A DNA stretch of 43,053 nt from an uncultured archaeon (GTDB taxonomy: Archaea > Halobacteriota > Methanosarcinia > Methanosarcinales > Methanoperedenaceae), in the NCBI GenBank assembly GCA_902386135.1, contig CABMIB010000049.1, positions 1 through 43,053 of the forward strand, read 5' to 3'. The translations under genes were made by a program, and so were the position numbers. The notes beneath the pieces were generated by a model. The model did no database searches. It saw only the letters and a list, made by a program, of their open reading frames with translations, and was not told the DNA's origin. Within the stretch, counting starts at the first letter, position 1. The number at the start of each line of letters is the position of its first letter. Positions 7,656 through 31,548 of the stretch are shown here, piece by piece.

Positions 7656-8801
7656 TCAGAGCCGCTTAAGCATTATAGACATTATCCCCGGCCTGGCATC
7701 CCTCACGGGTCCCGGTTGGAAGCCGAACATTCCCATATCAGAGCCTCCCAAGAACTCCTTCTCCCACCGCTCGGTTATTTCCTCGAATATCCTTTTATAG
7801 GCGATACAGTGGGGATCAACCCCCTTTATTTCACCTTCGGTAGGCGCTATGGCATTGTAGGGGCATCCGCCGCGGCAGAATTTGATGTATTTGCATTCCC
7901 CGCATTCCTTATCCACATATTCTTTATACCGGAACATAAGCTTCCATGCATCGGATTGAGCAAGATCTTCTTGGCTGGGATGGTCGCGAACATTGCCCAT
8001 AACGTATTCCGGCATGCCTATAAAGCGATAGCAGGGGTATATGCTCCCATCGGGTCCCACGGCAAAGGTATGCCCCATGCAATCCACGAAGGTGCAGACA
8101 GTGCCCCGGTTGGTGAACACGCATTTGCACAGGTGGTCTATGTTCATGATCTCGATCTTACCCATGTTCTCCAGATATTTGTCAAGGAGATAAACTAACA
8201 ATTCCCCATACTCTTTCGGATCAAGTGCCCATTTATCAGGGTTTTCGGAACGTATTGATGGCAATGCAGGATGTAATTTAAGAGTAAAACCATTGTCCAG
8301 GAAAAAATTGAAGATTTCCTCCCTGAACTTTACAGAATAGGAGGTAAAGGTGCAGATGAAGCTCACCTTGAGACCGGCTGCCCTGGCAATCTCATAGCCC
8401 TTCATGGTCTTCTTGTAGTATCCTTTTCCTCTCTGCAGGTCATTAAGCTCCTCGGGACCATCCAGACTGGAACCCAGGGGAATATTATATTTCGCCAGGA
8501 TCTGGGCCAGTTCCGGGGTCATTTTCCAGAGATTGGTCTGCATGGCGAAAGCCGGTTTCAGGTTACTTAAACCATCAGCCAGTAGCGGTAGGGCTTTCCG
8601 GTAAAAATCCGCACCCGCAAGGAGTGGCTCCCCGCCGTGGAAAGTAAAGGTGACCGGTTCATTCCGGAAATTCTTGAGCCATTTAACCACTTCTTCGATG
8701 GTTTCAATGCTCATTACCGGAGACCCGCTCTCGGAACTCCAGCAATAACTGCATTTAGAAGGACAGCGTAAAGTAGGTATCAGCATCACGTGAAAAGGCA
8801 T
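7656..8801 (-). CDS. radical SAM/SPASM enzyme, putative peptide-modifying (Mhun_1560-type)
   Basis: The start PTLRCPSKCSYCW holds the CxxxCxxC motif that binds the radical-SAM [4Fe-4S] cluster (Cys13, 17, 20), followed by FTFHGGEPL. The C-terminal SPASM region has many Cys (CTFVDC, YPCYR, CGECKYIKFCRGGCPYN), expected to carry auxiliary clusters. The N-terminus resembles the archaeal Mhun_1560 family of predicted peptide-modifying enzymes as I recall it; this is not verified. The substrate is unknown, and no clear precursor peptide is encoded directly upstream. Converges with the PHA operon 33 bases away. Confidence 0.8.
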   Translation of the reverse strand: MPFHVMLIPTLRCPSKCSYCWSSESGSPVMSIETIEEVVKWLKNFRNEPVTFTFHGGEPLLAGADFYRKALPLLADGLSNLKPAFAMQTNLWKMTPELAQILAKYNIPLGSSLDGPEELNDLQRGKGYYKKTMKGYEIARAAGLKVSFICTFTSYSVKFREEIFNFFLDNGFTLKLHPALPSIRSENPDKWALDPKEYGELLVYLLDKYLENMGKIEIMNIDHLCKCVFTNRGTVCTFVDCMGHTFAVGPDGSIYPCYRFIGMPEYVMGNVRDHPSQEDLAQSDAWKLMFRYKEYVDKECGECKYIKFCRGGCPYNAIAPTEGEIKGVDPHCIAYKRIFEEITERWEKEFLGGSDMGMFGFQPGPVRDARPGIMSIMLKRL

Positions 8802-22944: not shown

Positions 22945-23322
22945 TTGTTCAGAAGATTTTTGGAATCTTATGTCGATGTTTGTAATAATGTCGTAACGAA
23001 TGCAGCGAACGCTGTTCTGATGTTCGAAGCCGGCGAGCAGGCTGCAATGGACCTTAAAACCTCAAAAATTGAGGATATACAGAAGGAATTCGAGAAAGAT
23101 GGGGTAAAAGTGACTTTCGAGATATCTGAAAAAAAAGTCCTGTTCAGAGTCACAGGGCTGCCGTTAAAAGGGAAAAAATGTACGTACTGTGATATATTAA
23201 GAGGGTTTTTCGGAGGGATTGCCAGAAAACATATTGATAACAGGTTCTATTCTAAAAAAGGTACGGAATGCGTTCTGGAAGGTGCTGAGGAATGCACTTT
23301 CGTTGCGGAGCTGATAGAATGA
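22945..23322 (+). CDS. small V4R-like domain protein
   Basis: A 125-residue protein that resembles the V4R domain of hydrocarbon- or tetrapyrrole-binding proteins: a helical half (VVTNAANAVLMFEAGEQAAM), then CTYCDILRGFFGGIARKH and the end GTECVLEGAEECTFVAEL, with paired Cys typical of the V4R C-terminus. TTG 22945 follows GGGCGTGAG. The ligand is unknown. It stands upstream of the 202-residue protein in the same direction, probably cotranscribed. Confidence 0.65.
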   Translation: MFRRFLESYVDVCNNVVTNAANAVLMFEAGEQAAMDLKTSKIEDIQKEFEKDGVKVTFEISEKKVLFRVTGLPLKGKKCTYCDILRGFFGGIARKHIDNRFYSKKGTECVLEGAEECTFVAELIE

Positions 23323-23402: not shown

Positions 23403-24011
23403 ATGCCAAAAAATCTGACTGTGACCCTAAGTGACATGGAATATGAGATCCTTAAAAAGATAAATGTCGTTGAGGGCGAGGATGGCGAAAAATTAAGGAA
23501 TCTTCTCAGGCTCTATATATCCACCATCCCGGGATTAAAATCATCTGAGTATGCTCTGAAAAGGGTAGAAAATAAAGAGGAGATCGATAGCCTCCTGAGG
23601 GACGTCTGGGCTGCGTACGAACTTATAGATAATCCGACTGAAACCTGGAAAGATGATAAAATCGATAAACTGATAAGCGATCTTGTTGAAATCAACGTTC
23701 TTGTAAAAACAGGAGAGAAACAGTTCATTCCCACCTCCAAATTCAGGAACCTTTTTAAAATGCTGCTTCATGATATCGCAACCGAATCAAAGGAGATGAA
23801 TGAGTACAGCGCAGCGTGCATCGCAACTATCCAGTTGCTGGTAGAGTTCAGCGGCGGTACTCTCGGGAATGAGACGATAAGGGACGGGACTATTCTGCTT
23901 AACGAAGGATGGCTGTTCGCTTATGCCACAGCAATGAAGAAAGCCAGGGAATTCATGAGAACAAAAAAGTTGTTCCCGGAAACCGAGGAAGCTGCCGCTG
24001 AGCCCTCATAG
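23403..24011 (+). CDS. protein with ribbon-helix-helix-like N-terminus
   Basis: Residues 1-40 (KNLTVTLSDMEYEILKKI, then EKLRNLLRLYIS) resemble a ribbon-helix-helix DNA-binding domain. The rest, to residue 202, is mostly helical with TSKFRNLFKMLLHDIATE and a C-terminal FAYATAMKKAREFMR helix, and it ends acidic. It could be a sensor-regulator acting with the V4R-like protein encoded before it, an inference from position. It overlaps the convergent radical SAM gene by 6 bases. Confidence 0.5.
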   Translation: MPKNLTVTLSDMEYEILKKINVVEGEDGEKLRNLLRLYISTIPGLKSSEYALKRVENKEEIDSLLRDVWAAYELIDNPTETWKDDKIDKLISDLVEINVLVKTGEKQFIPTSKFRNLFKMLLHDIATESKEMNEYSAACIATIQLLVEFSGGTLGNETIRDGTILLNEGWLFAYATAMKKAREFMRTKKLFPETEEAAAEPS

Positions 24012-25196
24012 AAATGCCAGAACACCATTGGCATGGCATAACAGGGGATCGGGAGCCAGTATCCCTTTATATTGTTTTGCCCTGAAGCGGCATCCTCCTC
24101 TGCAATCTTTGATAACTTTGCAATCATGGCAATCCAGTTCATCAAGCTTCCAGAGATAATTTTTACAGAGCTTAGCCCAAGCTGCCTTGAGGTCATTTAC
24201 ATCCCCAACCGGTTCATCATCAAAAAATCCGCACTTACTTACTGCGCCATTGGGCGATACCGCGCACAGATGCGAACCGCAAGTGTAATCGCCGGTGCTT
24301 TCATGCGCCCCTGCGCCGAAGCCATAATTTAGCAGTGAGGCTGCATCTTCCGGAGGAAGCATATAGTCCTTATTGACTTTCAGGTTCCCAGCCGCACATG
24401 GCACATCCACGCTCCATGAAAGCACTTCCAGTTCAGAGAAAAGCTTTTTCATATCCCCGAACTCACCGGCATTATATCTGTGCACCATTGTGGCAATAGA
24501 GACTGGAATACCGGAAGCCTGGAGAGCAGAGATCCCCCGCATAACCTTGTCATACGAACCTTTCCCGCGTAAAAGGTCATGCGACTTTATGCCGTCGATA
24601 CTGACCTGGACTTCATCAACGTACTCAGATAGTTCCTCCGCCTCTTTTTTCCGTACCAGCGTCCCGTTAGACAAAACCACTACCCGAATCTCATAGGAAG
24701 GCAGGATCTCCATCAGTTCCCGGAATTTTGAATGAAGAAGAGGCTCACCTCCCGAAATCATAAGCTTCAAACCGCCCATTTCCTCGAATTGTGAAACTGC
24801 ATTTTTGAATAACCTTAATCCGATCTCTTTATTTCCTGATTCTCCAAGATAGCAGTGTTTGCATTTAAGATTACATTTGTTGGTTATATTCAGTAAGAGA
24901 TAGCGAAGCGATGGAACAGGTGAATGCGGTGCTTTGATTTTTCTTGGAGCTGCTTTTTCCTGCCGCCGGATTATACCTTCGTTCAGCATGTATTCGATGG
25001 ATTCACGGCTGTCTTCACCAGCGTTCTGAACCAGCATGGAAAAAGGAGTCGCTCCATTACATTTCTTTAAGAACCCGAATGCCTCGTCGTCCAGTTCATA
25101 TAACTGGTCATCGGATATGTTATAGACATACGGTTTCTCAAGCTTACGGAGCACAAATTCAGGCGAAAGTACAGGAAAAAACTCAGCTGAAGACAT
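24006..25196 (-). CDS. PqqD-like/radical SAM/SPASM peptide-modifying-type enzyme
   Basis: Three parts are visible. Residues 15-78 (VLRKLEKPYVYNISDDQLYE, then DDEAFGFLKKCNG and ESIEYMLNEGII) look like a PqqD-like RiPP recognition element. The radical SAM core follows with CNLKCKHCYLG (Cys108, 112, 115) and MISGGEPLL. The C-terminal SPASM part has CGSHLCAV, SKCGFF, CHDCKVIKDCRGGC and a last Cys before the end. Such enzymes usually modify a small peptide. A 52-residue Cys-containing peptide gene directly upstream overlaps its start by 14 bases and is the obvious candidate. Confidence 0.85.
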   Translation of the reverse strand: MSSAEFFPVLSPEFVLRKLEKPYVYNISDDQLYELDDEAFGFLKKCNGATPFSMLVQNAGEDSRESIEYMLNEGIIRRQEKAAPRKIKAPHSPVPSLRYLLLNITNKCNLKCKHCYLGESGNKEIGLRLFKNAVSQFEEMGGLKLMISGGEPLLHSKFRELMEILPSYEIRVVVLSNGTLVRKKEAEELSEYVDEVQVSIDGIKSHDLLRGKGSYDKVMRGISALQASGIPVSIATMVHRYNAGEFGDMKKLFSELEVLSWSVDVPCAAGNLKVNKDYMLPPEDAASLLNYGFGAGAHESTGDYTCGSHLCAVSPNGAVSKCGFFDDEPVGDVNDLKAAWAKLCKNYLWKLDELDCHDCKVIKDCRGGCRFRAKQYKGILAPDPLLCHANGVLAFL

Positions 25197-25341
25197 CTTT
25201 TATCTCTTCCGGCGTAATAACGCCTCTCTGGAGCATGCTTTTTAAGACCTTGAACGCAGCGCACTCAAGTTCTATATCGTCTTCCTTGAAGAACTCGCAA
25301 TGTGTGCAGATAAGGGCTATGTATGGATCTTCTTTTGTCAC
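25183..25341 (-). CDS. 52-residue cysteine-containing peptide, candidate radical SAM substrate
   Basis: GTG 25341 opens a 52-residue frame: an N-terminal TKEDPYIALICTHCEFFKED with Cys12 and Cys15, a third Cys27 in IELECAAFKVL, then a helical C-terminus LQRGVITPEEIKDVF. It overlaps the start of the radical SAM gene by 14 bases in another frame, so the two are translationally coupled. A TATA box lies about 30 bases upstream. It could be a modified-peptide precursor or a small Fe-S/zinc-binding partner. Family not recognised. Confidence 0.65.
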   Translation of the reverse strand: MTKEDPYIALICTHCEFFKEDDIELECAAFKVLKSMLQRGVITPEEIKDVFS

Positions 25342-25370: not shown

Positions 25371-25378
25371 TTTTATAA
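25371..25378 (-). promoter_or_regulatory. TATA box for the peptide/radical SAM pair
   Basis: On the minus strand this reads TTATAAAA after a purine-rich AGAAAGC. It is about 30 bases from GTG 25341, which suggests a separate transcript from the flavoprotein gene upstream, with a leader of only a few bases. Confidence 0.5.
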
Positions 25379-25396: not shown

Positions 25397-26788
25397 TTAT
25401 TCAGCGCAACAGCTCATCCTGCTGACATCTCGTCTAAAAGACTGTGCAGCCAGCTTAACTGCTTCTGTCATTGTAGGGAAAACATGCACCGTGTCTATAA
25501 TATCATCGATAGTCATACCAAATTTTACAGCAAGAACCCCTTCATGGATCATATCAGCAGCCAGTGAAGCTAATATATGTACACCGAGTATATGTTCAGT
25601 CTCTGCATCGATCACCATTTTTACAAGCCCACGCGTATCTTTTGCCAGCACAGCTTTTGGAACAAGTTCCATAGGGATGGAACTGCATCTGCAATTAATG
25701 CCTTTTTCTTCAGCTTTTTTCTCTGTCAGTCCGACACTGGCTACCTGAGGCATTGTGAATATTGCATGAGGTACGGATGAAAAGTCTATCTTTTTCCCTC
25801 TACCTGTTAAGGCGTTTTCAGCAGCAATCGAACCTTCCTTGCCTGCTACGGTCTCAAGCATGGGTTCGCCGAGAACATCGCCTGCCGCCCAAATATTTAG
25901 TGCAGTAGTCCTCATCTCTTCATCCACAATCACTGTGCCATTCTTATCAACCCGCACACCTGCTTTTTCCAGACCCAGATCTCTGGTATTGGGCTTCCTG
26001 CCTGTTGCCATCAGCAGTTTTTCGACAACGAATTCTTTCGTTTCATCTCCAATAAGCGCGGTGACTATAATATCACCCCTTTCTTTCCGAACACTTTTCA
26101 CACCTGCATCTGTCTGAATATCTATGCCTTCTTCTTCAAGATAGATTTTGAGATAATCTGAGATTATGCTTTCCTCTTCAGGTATTATCCTTTGACTTCT
26201 CTGGAGCACGGTAACTTTTGTTCCGAAATGCGCAAACATCTGGGCAAATTCAAGACCAAGAGCCCTTCCGCCCAGAACAACCATGGATTCAGGGAGTTCG
26301 GATAGCTCCATAGCCTCAACATTAGTAAGATAATCAACCCTGTCGATCCCCTCTATCGGTAAGATACTTGGCGATGACCCGGTAGCTATGATGAACTTAT
26401 CTGACCGTAGAATTCTTCCGTTCACTTTCACTTCATTTTTTGAAACAAAAACAGCCTGCCCTTTTACAAGAGTAATCCCTAACGCATCGATTACATCGAT
26501 ATACCTGCCCTTCCTTAAGCCCTCTACAATCTCTCGTTTCTCATTTATCGTGCTCCCAAAATCAAGGGACGAACTTACATTTAGCCCTGTATGACCATGA
26601 TTCCCGTAGTAATTGATTTCTCCCACCCTGAGTAAATGTTTGCTGGGCACGCAGCCCACATTTACACAGGTGCCGCCGATTGTATACCTCTCGACCATCG
26701 CAACCTTTGCCCTCAATTCCACTGCTTTAATCGCAGCCCCAAATGCGGCAGAGCCGCTGCCAAGTATTATTAAATCATATTTTTCCAT
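25397..26788 (-). CDS. MerA-like mercuric reductase / disulfide oxidoreductase
   Basis: A 463-residue flavoprotein: FAD motif GSGSAAFGAA, redox-active pair in GGTCVNVGCVPSK (Cys41, Cys46), NAD(P)-binding VVLGGRALGLEFAQ, ATGRKPNT, and WAAGDVLG. The C-terminal MSCCAE with vicinal Cys460-461 is the signature of MerA, where it delivers Hg(II) to the active site. An N-terminal HMA domain is absent. The region HVFPTMTEAVKLAAQSF keeps a His-Pro-like pattern of lipoamide dehydrogenases, while LKLAAQ-like spacing follows MerA. Mercuric reductase is likely, another metal or thiol substrate possible. Last gene of the ArsR-AtwA operon. No merT or merB in view. Confidence 0.75.
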   Translation of the reverse strand: MEKYDLIILGSGSAAFGAAIKAVELRAKVAMVERYTIGGTCVNVGCVPSKHLLRVGEINYYGNHGHTGLNVSSSLDFGSTINEKREIVEGLRKGRYIDVIDALGITLVKGQAVFVSKNEVKVNGRILRSDKFIIATGSSPSILPIEGIDRVDYLTNVEAMELSELPESMVVLGGRALGLEFAQMFAHFGTKVTVLQRSQRIIPEEESIISDYLKIYLEEEGIDIQTDAGVKSVRKERGDIIVTALIGDETKEFVVEKLLMATGRKPNTRDLGLEKAGVRVDKNGTVIVDEEMRTTALNIWAAGDVLGEPMLETVAGKEGSIAAENALTGRGKKIDFSSVPHAIFTMPQVASVGLTEKKAEEKGINCRCSSIPMELVPKAVLAKDTRGLVKMVIDAETEHILGVHILASLAADMIHEGVLAVKFGMTIDDIIDTVHVFPTMTEAVKLAAQSFRRDVSRMSCCAE

Positions 26789-26875
26789 GTCAATACCCTG
26801 CTTTTCCTTAATATGTCCATTATAATGAACGCTTGATATATTTTGGGATTTACGGCGATAGCTACTTCTTATTTG

Positions 26876-27160
26876 CTATTTTTCTCTCTTGGGTCTGCAT
26901 ACCATCGCTTTCGGTTTGCATACCATGTGGCAGCTCCCATCTCCCACACAGTTCCCAGCGTTCACAACAACTGAGATTTTTCTGCCATTTAATTCCTGAA
27001 GCTCGTAAACTCCCCGTGAACATACCTTCACACACATCCCGCAACCAGTACATTTTTCTTTATCAACGTACTCGATAAAGGCTGGGGTCCATTTCTCGCC
27101 TGATTTTGTCTCACCCTGATAATATGCAGCATTATCAGTTTCGCAACAACAACCTTTCAT
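26876..27160 (-). CDS. ferredoxin with Cys-rich N-terminus
   Basis: The 94-residue protein has the CTGCGMCVKVC motif and a second set, CVGDGSCHMVCKPKAMVC, giving two clusters of the 2[4Fe-4S] type, although the second motif is spaced irregularly. It starts MKGCCCETDN, an unusual triple Cys. The layout resembles ferredoxins of the nif/FdxN-like group. It lies between the zinc-ribbon gene (5 bases upstream) and the MerA-like flavoprotein, suggesting that it passes electrons within this operon. Confidence 0.85.
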   Translation of the reverse strand: MKGCCCETDNAAYYQGETKSGEKWTPAFIEYVDKEKCTGCGMCVKVCSRGVYELQELNGRKISVVVNAGNCVGDGSCHMVCKPKAMVCRPKREK

Positions 27161-27165
27161 TTCTC

Positions 27166-27324
27166 TTAACTCACTATTTCAACGTTGCTGGATTTGCAGG
27201 CGGGACAGATAACACTATTTCCAAGTCCCTTAAATTTGTTTCCGCAATCCTGGCAAACATATTCTTTCAAATTCATTTCTATGTTTTCTATATTGAATTC
27301 AGGCACATCCGCTACCATGCACAT
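27166..27324 (-). CDS. small zinc-ribbon/rubredoxin-like protein
   Basis: A 52-residue protein whose C-terminal half is YVCQDCGNKFKGLG and ICPACKSSNVE, two Cys-x-x-Cys knuckles that bind zinc or iron. ATG 27324 is chosen because AGGTGA, overlapping the end of the AtwA-like gene, lies 6 bases upstream. A start at 27366 would overlap that gene by 37 bases. It is translationally tied to the ATPase and precedes the ferredoxin. Confidence 0.75.
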   Translation of the reverse strand: MCMVADVPEFNIENIEMNLKEYVCQDCGNKFKGLGNSVICPACKSSNVEIVS

Positions 27325-27329
27325 ATTTT

Positions 27330-29441
27330 TCACCTCAATTTCATGTGTATATCCGTCAGCGTCCATCTTTCATACCACGGCAGTGATTTTAATATTTCGT
27401 CTATGTTTTTTCCAATTTTTGAAGCATAATTGCCTGCTCTATGTATATATTGGTACGACATGCCGAGGAAACCTTTGGATTCATGCTTCTGGGCGTCTTG
27501 TAATGCCTCTTCAAGACCTTTTTCGTATGCAGGCATGAACTTCGAGAGCTCCCCTGAAATATCAATACCAGCACAGGCTGCATATCTCACTGCATTTTCT
27601 ATATAAACGTCCATTCCGTATATTTGCCCATCCAGTGTATATCTTTCCGCTTCTTTAAGCATCTCAGAGATGCCTGTTTCATACGCTGGCTTAAGCTTCT
27701 CAAGCTCACCGCTTATATCCTTATTGAGTTTTGATGCAGTCTCTTTTGCCTTTGAAGCGTAAAAATCGATATCACACAGATTCCCATGCTCTGCGCACTG
27801 CTGCGCTCTTTCAAGATACCTTCCGAGGTCGTTATTTCTATCTTCAGGAGTCTTTTCCCTTTCCGGTTTTTCACTTTTGATATCATCAAGTACCGAACCA
27901 ACATCACCCATTGCTGTGATTTTGCCAAGATTCATGTGCGCAGCCCGGTCGCACACGTTTCTGACGAACTCTATGTCATGGGAAACTATAACGAACGTCG
28001 TCCCTGTTTCTTTTCTTGCTGTTAGAATTGAGTTTGCAACCTCGTTCTTGGTGATCGGGTCCATTGTTCCCGTGGGTTCATCAAAGATAACAACCCTCGG
28101 CTCTCTGATTAGGACCTGTGCCATTGTCACCCTCTGGCGTTCTCCAACGCTAAGTTCGTATGATGTCTTCTCCAGAACCTCACGCGCTGTGTTTTCATCA
28201 AAGCCCACTGCTCTCAACGTGTTTATTGATTTTGTTCTTGCAAGTTCTGGCTCAAGCTTCAGACCTATCGATTCTGTCAGGTTATACAATACATTCCTGT
28301 GAGGGTAAAGGGAATATTCCTGATGCAGGTAGCCAATGTGTGGTTTTGCACGTCCTCTGAAATCCGTTCCCCTCTCGGTCATATCAACCCACATATCCCC
28401 TATTCTCACATCCACTTTTCCGCTGTCTCTTTCCAGAATGCCCGCTATGATTTTGGAAAGTGATGTTTTCCCGGCTCCGCTTATACCTATTATTCCGAAA
28501 ATCTCTCCTTCATGGAACTCGAAGCTCACTCCGTTCACGGCAGGAATCATGCCTTTAGAATAGGAATAGTATTTCTTCTTCACATCTTTAAGAATAATAA
28601 TCGGCTCGCCTGCTTCCGCTTTTTTCTCATTCACCACTCCGGTCATTGCAGAAAACTTTTTAATAATTTCATCTGGTTTTCCTGTCCCGATGATTTCTCC
28701 TTTGTCAAGAAGAATCGCTTTATTTGTAAGATCCAGTAAAACTCCTGGCAGATGTGAAGTGACCAGCATGGTCATACTGTGTTCTTGCTTTGCTTTCAAT
28801 ATGCTCTCATGCACCAGCTTTGCAGTTCTCGGGTCAAGTGTCCCGGTAGGCTCGTCCGCGAGTAAAAGCATCGGGTACTTGGCAAGTTGGCGTGCAAGCA
28901 CTACTCTCTGTTTCTCTCCCCCGCTGAGTTCTTTTCCTGTGTACATCATTCTATGGCTGAGCTTCACTTTTTCAATCAGTTCTGCTGCAACATAGGGGCG
29001 TTTCTCTTTAGGGATGTCGGAATATTCGAAACTGTGCATGATATTTTCCAGAACGGTCTCATCGCTGTATAATCCAAAGGTTCGCTGCATCATAATAGCC
29101 GTTCTCTCCATGATTTTTCTGTGCATGCCCTTTGAGTCAAGATAATTTACCCTCTGAAGTTCGGTCTTTATGTTGCATTTTGAGCACGCGCTACCTGCGT
29201 TGCTTGGAATGTTTACTTTACCGCATCCGGGACAGCAAGATATGTTGAAAATTACCTCACCGGTAACATCCTCAAATTCCTCAAAGCCACGAAGCAAATG
29301 CAAAAGAGTGCTCTTTCCTGCGCCGCTTTTCCCGATTATACCTATGCTGTCGCCTTCATTTATGTCTAGATTTATATTCTTGAGAATAAGCCTGCCCTTG
29401 ACGTTGATATTCAAATCCCGTATTTCGATTAGAGCCACCAT
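27330..29441 (-). CDS. AtwA-like (methyl-CoM reductase component A2) ATPase with C-terminal repeats
   Basis: A twin ABC ATPase without membrane domains. Walker A sites are GKSGAGKST (37-45) and GISGAGKTS (319-327); signatures are LSGGEKQR and LSVGERQR; Walker B sites are LLLADEP and VVIFDEP. A Cys-rich insert in the first domain (CCPGCGKV, CSKC, residues 69-89) is typical of component A2, which provides ATP-driven reductive activation of methyl-CoM reductase. Unlike ordinary AtwA of about 540 residues, this one continues to 703. The extra residues 540-703 hold three helical repeats of about 53 residues (landmarks DISGEL-x-K-x-x-PAYE twice and NIDEILKSLPWYE). It lies in an operon with ArsR, a zinc ribbon, a ferredoxin and a MerA-like flavoprotein, so it is perhaps a paralogue with a new role. 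Confidence 0.85.
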   Translation of the reverse strand: MVALIEIRDLNINVKGRLILKNINLDINEGDSIGIIGKSGAGKSTLLHLLRGFEEFEDVTGEVIFNISCCPGCGKVNIPSNAGSACSKCNIKTELQRVNYLDSKGMHRKIMERTAIMMQRTFGLYSDETVLENIMHSFEYSDIPKEKRPYVAAELIEKVKLSHRMMYTGKELSGGEKQRVVLARQLAKYPMLLLADEPTGTLDPRTAKLVHESILKAKQEHSMTMLVTSHLPGVLLDLTNKAILLDKGEIIGTGKPDEIIKKFSAMTGVVNEKKAEAGEPIIILKDVKKKYYSYSKGMIPAVNGVSFEFHEGEIFGIIGISGAGKTSLSKIIAGILERDSGKVDVRIGDMWVDMTERGTDFRGRAKPHIGYLHQEYSLYPHRNVLYNLTESIGLKLEPELARTKSINTLRAVGFDENTAREVLEKTSYELSVGERQRVTMAQVLIREPRVVIFDEPTGTMDPITKNEVANSILTARKETGTTFVIVSHDIEFVRNVCDRAAHMNLGKITAMGDVGSVLDDIKSEKPEREKTPEDRNNDLGRYLERAQQCAEHGNLCDIDFYASKAKETASKLNKDISGELEKLKPAYETGISEMLKEAERYTLDGQIYGMDVYIENAVRYAACAGIDISGELSKFMPAYEKGLEEALQDAQKHESKGFLGMSYQYIHRAGNYASKIGKNIDEILKSLPWYERWTLTDIHMKLR

Positions 29442-29444
29442 TTT

Positions 29445-29783
29445 TTAACTCCTCTTCTTGTTATTAACAACCTCGCAGGAGAGTATTCCTTCAAGCATTT
29501 CCTTAACATGCCTGTCCGAAAGGTCAAGGATATCCGAAATAGCCTCGTTCTTTATAGAGTAAACCACAAATTTCCCATTTTTCTCGGTGTTAACAAGCCC
29601 GCAATTCCGGAGACATGCCATGTGGTGCGAGACAAGACTCTGGTCTTTTCCTGTTACCTCACAGATATCACTCACGCACATGCTGCCGTTCTCTTTAAGG
29701 GCAAAGAGTATGGACAGCCTGGTCTCATCGCTTAACGCGCTGAAGAAATACTTTTTTGCAGTAGTCAAATCTCCATTTAACAT
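29445..29783 (-). CDS. ArsR-family metal-sensing repressor
   Basis: A winged-helix repressor of 112 residues: FFSALSDETRLSILFALKE, the HTH with MCVSDICEVTGKDQSLVSHH, and the wing VNTEKNGKFVVYSI. Cys36 and Cys41 flank the position of the ArsR/CadC metal motif, and Cys57, 61 and 103 add possible ligands. It is the first gene of the operon with the AtwA-like ATPase, 3 bases apart. An 18-base palindrome covers its start codon and is the likely operator. The metal is unknown (As, Cd/Pb, Hg or a thiol-redox signal). Confidence 0.85.
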   Translation of the reverse strand: MLNGDLTTAKKYFFSALSDETRLSILFALKENGSMCVSDICEVTGKDQSLVSHHMACLRNCGLVNTEKNGKFVVYSIKNEAISDILDLSDRHVKEMLEGILSCEVVNNKKRS

Positions 29784-30411: not shown

Positions 30412-31548
30412 TTATTCCTCCTGTTTCCCTGGATTTGTTGTAGACACAATGCTTTTCCCTCGTACCGGCAAACCGTTCTTATCAAACCATATCGTTCCCG
30501 CCCTTCTTGCAACATGGACAAGCCCCAGCATTACAGGCACCTCGATGAGAGGGCCAACTACAGCGGCAAACGCCTGACCTGAGCCGATACCGAAAACCGC
30601 GACAGCAACAGCAATTGCCAGTTCAAAGTTATTGCTCGCTGCCGTGAATGCAAGTGTAGTGGACTGCTCGTAAGAAAAACCAAGCCTGTATGACATAACG
30701 AACGACAAGGCGAACATTATAATGAAATAAGCTAGCAGCGGGATTGCTATCCTAAGAACGTCCATGGGAAGAGCTACGATGTTCTCTCCCTTCAGCGAGA
30801 ACATGACGATAATAGTGAAGAGCAGGCCAACAAGCGCTGTGGGACCGAGCTTTTTCATAAATACGTTATCATACCATTCCTTCCCTCTTTTGTTCAGCAG
30901 CACGTACCTTGTGACCATGCCGCCGATAAAGGGGATTCCAAGGTAAATGAAAACCGCTTTTGCGACCTGCCAAATAGAAATATCAACAACCGCGCCTGCT
31001 CCGGTTCCGCCTATCCATGTCGATATTACGGTTATGAACGCATACGCCAGGACAGAATAAAGAGCCACCTGGAAAATGGAATTCATCGCAACAAGAACAG
31101 CGCACAGGTCATTATCCCCTCCAGCCATCTGGTTCCAGACAAGTACCATGGCAATGCAGCGCGCAAGACCGATCAGGATCAGACCTATGCGGTACTCGGG
31201 TAGGTCAGGAAGGAAAAACCATGCGAGGGCGAACATGAGAACAGGACCTATCAGCCAGTTCTGGATGATGGATGCGCCAAGGGCTTTTCCCTGTTTCTTC
31301 ATTTTAGAGAGTTCCTCATACTTTACGCCTGCAAGCGGCGGATACATCATCCAGATAAGACCGATAGCAATAGGGAGAGAGACCTGTTCTATGCGGACAG
31401 CGTCAAGGATGCCGGCTATCTGCGGATACGCAGCGCCAAGGATAATACCGCCCGCCATCGCCAGGAGAATCCACAAGGTCAGGAACCTGCTCAGAATGCC
31501 AAGACTGCCTTTACCTGTTCCGCCGAAGTGCCCTGATATTTCCTCCAA
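30412..31548 (-). CDS. acr3: arsenite efflux transporter Acr3
   Basis: A 378-residue membrane protein of about ten helices. It exports As(III). Family landmarks are [20 protein letters not shown], the [19 protein letters not shown] region with the conserved Cys, [17 protein letters not shown], and the [17 protein letters not shown] end. A short soluble N-terminus precedes the first helix. Upstream lies a palindrome (31630-31649) identical in plan to one at the arsR promoter, indicating shared control. It heads an operon with the CMD gene. Confidence 0.93.

Follow-up and report, generated by a model that had tools for sequence, protein, structure and literature searches.

The 43,053-nt stretch of archaeal DNA analysed here (hereafter the window) contains a short open reading frame that runs into the start of a radical SAM gene, which raises two questions: whether the frame encodes a real protein and whether this protein is what the enzyme modifies. 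On the minus strand, the frame extends from a GTG at 25341 to a stop at 25183 (25183-25341) and translates into a protein of 52 amino acids (MTKEDPYIALICTHCEFFKEDDIELECAAFKVLKSMLQRGVITPEEIKDVFS) with cysteines at positions 12, 15 and 27. The ATG of the enzyme gene (24006-25196, minus strand, 396 amino acids) lies at 25196, inside the end of the small frame, and the two genes share 14 nt (25183-25196, minus strand). An earlier reading of the letters alone (the sequence-only reading) had pointed to this frame and its overlap, both of which are present, and had described the peptide as ending in TPEEI; the TPEEI stretch is there, but it is followed by KDVFS.

The 52-codon frame is a genuine gene under purifying selection. 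Across 136 pairs of relatives it shows a median dN of 0.13, a median dS of 1.3 and an omega of 0.10, third codon positions hold 60% of the differences, and both alternative frames contain stops. Conservation of the frame had been named beforehand by the sequence-only reading as the point on which its proposal could fail, and the dN/dS of 0.10 upholds it. The small frame was found at the same place in every Methanoperedens locus first retrieved among relatives of the enzyme, and in each of the 44 archaeal loci analysed it directly precedes the enzyme gene in the same orientation. The 14-nt overlap is identical in 20 of 25 Methanoperedenaceae loci. Start codons vary among relatives, with TTG in two of them and ATG with a longer N-terminus in a third.

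A TATA-like box (TTATAAAA, 25371-25378, minus strand) is located approximately 33 nt upstream of the GTG, as the sequence-only reading had reported. Among relatives, a similar box was found between -50 and -20 in 9 of 25 loci, as compared to 2.5 expected from shuffled sequences, so the element is only partly conserved and not fixed, and a role as a real promoter element is plausible. An apparent operon lies further upstream near an ACR3 transporter (25397-29783 and 30412-31548, both on the minus strand) and encodes an ArsR-type regulator, a 66-aa zinc-ribbon protein, a ferredoxin, a MerA-type flavoprotein and an ATPase similar to the methyl-CoM reductase component A2 (AtwA). The latter has 703 amino acids against 530 in the model and carries a long C-terminal extension. 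In other Methanoperedens the pair follows unrelated genes, and this mercury/arsenic-type operon was for that reason not counted as belonging to the system; a MerA gene is found upstream only in the window and in Candidatus Methanoperedens isolate Mnv1, and the operon precedes the pair only in the window (MerA alone does so at locus L009). On the other side, a 202-aa protein with no assigned family (23403-24011, plus strand) is encoded convergently, and its stop overlaps that of the enzyme by 6 nt. A convergent homologue adjoins the enzyme gene in four relatives, and in the same four the 202-aa gene has a neighbour related to the 125-aa frame at 22945-23322 (plus strand, TTG start), which gave weak NCBIfam matches only.

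The enzyme belongs to the radical SAM proteins with a C-terminal SPASM domain. Its C108xxxC112xxC115 motif (24852-24875, minus strand; PF04055, E = 5.7e-24) is invariant in 106 of 106 sequences, and so are the seven cysteines of the SPASM region, C306...C322...C356xxC359x5C365x3C369x17C387 (24036-24281, minus strand), as expected from the sequence-only reading. Their spacing is that of the published SPASM pattern with two auxiliary cluster sites, and the enzyme has the full set of cluster ligands, although the Pfam SPASM model itself matches only 6 of 81 members. The closest relative, from isolate Mnv1, is 87% identical, which places the window in a Candidatus Methanoperedens genome. The best match among PDB sequences is SkfB (E = 3e-26), another peptide maturase group (CteB, PqqE and SuiB) and cytosylglucuronate decarboxylase being the other nearest solved sequences. 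No equivalog cut-off of NCBIfam was reached, all of the matches shown being far below. The window encodes a second radical SAM/SPASM enzyme (7656-8801, minus strand, 381 amino acids), whose radical SAM domain begins at residue 8 and which is thus without an N-terminal recognition domain.

In the first enzyme, residues of approximately 15-78 (24963-25154, minus strand) had been described as a PqqD-like domain. A PqqD reference alignment was built from PF05402 matches in related genomes, and hhalign comparison of the enzyme N-terminus with it gave 81% when 26 diverse sequences were used and 45% for the complete set of 81; none of six slices taken from elsewhere in the enzyme and none of 40 column shuffles exceeded 1%. 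The alignment between the full enzyme profile and CteB takes in the N-terminal part of the latter as well. Direct searches gave no match in this region, neither with PF05402 (0 of 81 members) nor with the N-terminal profile against recognition domains among PDB sequences. With a mean pLDDT of 57, and of only 31-37 in the N-terminus, the AlphaFold2 prediction for the enzyme is too poor to judge the N-terminal fold, and Foldseek with this low-confidence model found mainly radical SAM cores. On the strength of the profile comparison, we consider with moderate confidence that the N-terminus is PqqD/RRE-like. Other proteins with a PqqD-like stretch, of approximately 720-750 amino acids, are encoded in Methanoperedens genomes (G000, contig C104, 10569-10763, and eight further loci); the G000 protein, a 735-aa frame, also matches Radical_SAM, and these proteins look like a separate maturase family.

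The distribution of both proteins was analyzed using an enzyme profile built from eight sequences and a profile of the small protein. Within the Methanoperedenaceae, 28 of 34 genomes match the enzyme profile at E<=1e-25 (the majority with E<1e-190), a few through fragments or a paralog only, and nearly all enzyme-bearing genomes have the small partner at the enzyme. In a sample of 393 genomes from the phylum Halobacteriota, with an enzyme cut-off of E<1e-40, the enzyme is present in 25. Most of these belong to a single family, that of Geoglobus ahangari, and the pair extends to Archaeoglobi-type archaea. The small protein occurs in 24 of these 25 genomes and in none of the 368 without the enzyme. 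Among 246 genomes of the phylum Nitrospirota, the enzyme was found in 81, the small protein in 78 and the two together in 75, that is, 75 of 81 enzyme genomes against 3 of 165 without it; genome incompleteness may account for the six enzyme genomes and three small-protein genomes that have no partner. Fisher tests gave 2e-37 for the archaeal and 8e-52 for the Nitrospirota sample, values that ignore shared ancestry and are descriptive only. Two of 299 sampled Bacillota genomes have the enzyme, both with an overlapping small gene upstream, and 301 Chloroflexota genomes contained no ortholog, a result of little weight as there was no positive control in that phylum. Both genes are real, under purifying selection, and physically and phylogenetically coupled, and the coupling holds even where they are unlinked. 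The two proteins very likely belong together, and the proposed two-gene system is borne out by the near perfect co-occurrence that the suggested profile search revealed.

The small protein exists in two forms. The single-domain form is found in archaea, in the two Bacillota and in one genome of the Nitrospirota phylum, and follows the pattern C-x2-C-[DEQ]-F-[YF]...L-E-C-x-[AG] with a helical segment behind it. In the window, the C12-x2-C15-x11-C27 motif reads CTHCEFFKEDDIELEC (25261-25308, minus strand), and C12, C15, F17, L25, E26 and C27 are invariant across the 22 aligned single-domain members. A Glu or Asp after the second cysteine is common, but Gln or Ala replaces it in some sequences, and the C-x3-[DE] thioether motif known from PapB was therefore not adopted. 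A structural model (pLDDT 78.5) predicts three helices (residues 6-14, 23-39 and 44-51) and found no match with Foldseek. As the sequence-only reading had suspected, the family is a new one to the libraries searched: Pfam, NCBIfam and PDB gave no family match, including none to known Fe-S or zinc small-protein families or, in NCBIfam, to the six-Cys-in-45 precursors of SCIFF, and the 52-mer returned a sub-threshold SHOCT hit only.

Most Nitrospirota have a two-unit form of approximately 100-140 amino acids with seven cysteines, in which a three-Cys unit is followed by a four-Cys unit (C-x2-C-x-F...DCDF...PCGG). Comparison of the single domain with the second unit gave an hhalign probability of 97%, and Pfam and NCBIfam searches with 18 two-domain proteins gave nothing consistent and nothing curated. 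The two-unit gene is adjacent and divergent to the enzyme gene at four loci and unlinked from it in many other Nitrospirota genomes, where its neighbours include genes that we named by eye as CutA-like, endonuclease III-like, arsenite-methyltransferase-like and SCO-like. These recurring genes differ by lineage, and a function was not assigned from them. At nine loci, the unlinked gene directly follows the CutA-like gene (again named by eye). At two others (L153, 6039-6785, and L159, 8848-9882, both on the plus strand), the two-domain protein is extended C-terminally by a His/Cys motif (HTHACYLVYG...GHEEI), which is possibly cupin-like. The enzyme tree splits into archaeal and bacterial sides (support 0.98), and the single-domain overlapping arrangement is present on both, which makes it likely to be the older state.

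We infer, with a probability of roughly 0.6, that the small protein is the substrate of the enzyme, which would bind it and modify it at or near its cysteines. In the SPASM peptide maturases SkfB, CteB and PqqE, the substrate is docked by a recognition domain and the 5'-deoxyadenosyl radical arises at the radical SAM cluster, and the role of the SPASM clusters is to bind a substrate thiolate or to accept the electron. By analogy, the PqqD/RRE-like domain would bind the small protein, probably through its helical C-terminal half or as a folded whole, since the shortest members have almost no N-terminal leader. The 5'-deoxyadenosyl radical generated at the radical SAM cluster would then abstract hydrogen from a residue that belongs to the C-x2-C-x11-C motif or lies close to it, and the pair of SPASM clusters may hold the substrate cysteine and take up the electron. 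The outcome would most plausibly be a thioether or some other alteration centred on Cys. The modified Cys protein would be stable and would stay inside the cell rather than being secreted as an antibiotic, and its role in anaerobes would be a conserved one, perhaps tied to redox or metal chemistry. Two observations speak against the small protein as substrate: apart from one Phe, the single- and two-domain versions share no conserved non-Cys acceptor residue, and small-molecule enzymes (cytosylglucuronate decarboxylase, viperin) are also among the top matches to solved sequences and structures.

The cysteines of the small protein could be read differently, since a CxxC with a distal Cys would fit a metal or Fe-S site just as well. 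The small protein might then be a metal- or Fe-S-binding partner (an electron or cluster donor, or a regulatory subunit) of an enzyme acting on a different protein or on a small molecule. The four cysteines of the C-terminal repeat in the bacterial version (3+4 Cys in two repeats) are consistent with such a partner, and so is a stable conserved protein lacking a leader/core division and encoded, in many Nitrospirota, far from the enzyme and often beside CutA-like genes. However, the archaeal form has three invariant cysteines only, a PqqD/RRE-like domain typically binds a peptide substrate, and radical SAM enzymes normally draw their electrons from general ferredoxins or flavodoxins, so that we regard a partner role as unlikely, if still a serious competitor to the small protein being the substrate.

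The classic RiPP arrangement that the sequence-only reading saw in the pair fared worse. Here, modification of a leader/core precursor would be followed by cleavage and by export of a peptide with a signalling or antimicrobial function, as might be expected from a small frame overlapping a fused PqqD/radical SAM/SPASM gene, and SCIFF demonstrates that broadly conserved Cys-rich RiPPs exist (PMC8326336). The N-terminal leader and C-terminal core of RRE-type RiPPs are, however, not what the small protein displays, although recognition from the C-terminal side is conceivable. As few as seven residues precede the first Cys in the shortest members (MELVSIVC in one, MKLVYEIC in another), and conservation spans the whole domain and not one end, being strongest from the first Cys into the C-terminal helical segment. 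In many genomes, the gene for the seven-Cys two-domain form lies apart from that of the enzyme, and among the loci examined neither a peptidase nor an exporter is a recurrent neighbour of the pair. From the short N-terminus, the whole-domain conservation and the unlinked seven-Cys form, the small protein is more readily seen as a substrate of protein size, or as a partner that binds metal, than as a cleavable leader/core precursor, and we consider cleavage and export of a RiPP very improbable.

Methanosarcinaceae make heme by the Ahb route. Production of a small-molecule cofactor, as by AhbD/NirJ-type SPASM enzymes, with the small protein as carrier or regulator, would suit the sub-threshold AhbC, AhbD and NirJ matches and the distribution in anaerobic archaea and Nitrospirota, but it is a very improbable reading, as these models score 84-100 bits against cut-offs of 500-650 and the enzyme stays far under every NCBIfam cut-off, no cofactor-pathway genes neighbour the pair, and the enzyme is absent from same-order genomes of a family that is probably Methanosarcinaceae.

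With the small protein as substrate, the pair could tentatively be viewed as a previously undescribed and ancient means of protein maturation, distinct from RiPPs, in anaerobic archaea and bacteria, which introduces a Cys crosslink or another site-specific change into a dedicated small housekeeping protein and possibly gives rise to an unusual three-cysteine metal, cluster or redox centre. A two-gene unit shared by methane-oxidising archaea, Nitrospirota and Bacillota, and retained even where its genes are unlinked, points to a real uncharacterised function in anaerobes, and the protein family and structure libraries searched do not contain its small protein. The carriers include the isolates Geoglobus ahangari (PMC4600277) and Thermodesulfovibrio yellowstonii (PMC4319510), in which the proposed modification can be searched for by proteomics without reconstitution.

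Neither an account of this pair nor a named family for it came up in the literature searches, and several known systems resemble it in part. Quinohemoprotein amine dehydrogenase maturation is similar in concept, likened here by description: the radical SAM/SPASM enzyme QhpD forms thioethers in QhpC, a small protein subunit and not a cleaved peptide (PMC8326336), but no amine dehydrogenase genes were seen near our pair. PqqE-PqqD-PqqA and mycofactocin likewise combine a PqqD-like recognition domain with a radical SAM/SPASM enzyme; in the present pair, by contrast, the PqqD part is fused, no further cofactor genes accompany it, and no precursor model is matched. The sactipeptide maturases AlbA and SkfB (of SkfA-SkfB) share the radical SAM/SPASM core, and SkfB has the closest PDB sequence, whereas our pair is without export or immunity genes and its partner is a conserved Cys protein instead of a toxin precursor. 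The SCIFF/ranthipeptide system CteA-CteB (Haft and Basu 2011, reviewed in PMC8326336) also places a small Cys-rich protein of approximately 45-55 residues beside an enzyme with a recognition domain, a radical SAM domain and a two-cluster SPASM domain, is broadly conserved in anaerobes outside any large gene cluster, and contributes CteB as a strong PDB sequence match. Unlike SCIFF, the protein described here has three cysteines and not six, is too short at its N-terminus to accommodate a leader, also exists in two-domain form and is found in archaea and Nitrospirota. It matches no NCBIfam model, and the enzyme is below every NCBIfam cut-off. Judged by these profile comparisons, the pair appears to work like the SCIFF/ranthipeptide system but is not a member of it, since its small protein is unrelated and its enzyme reaches none of the family thresholds.
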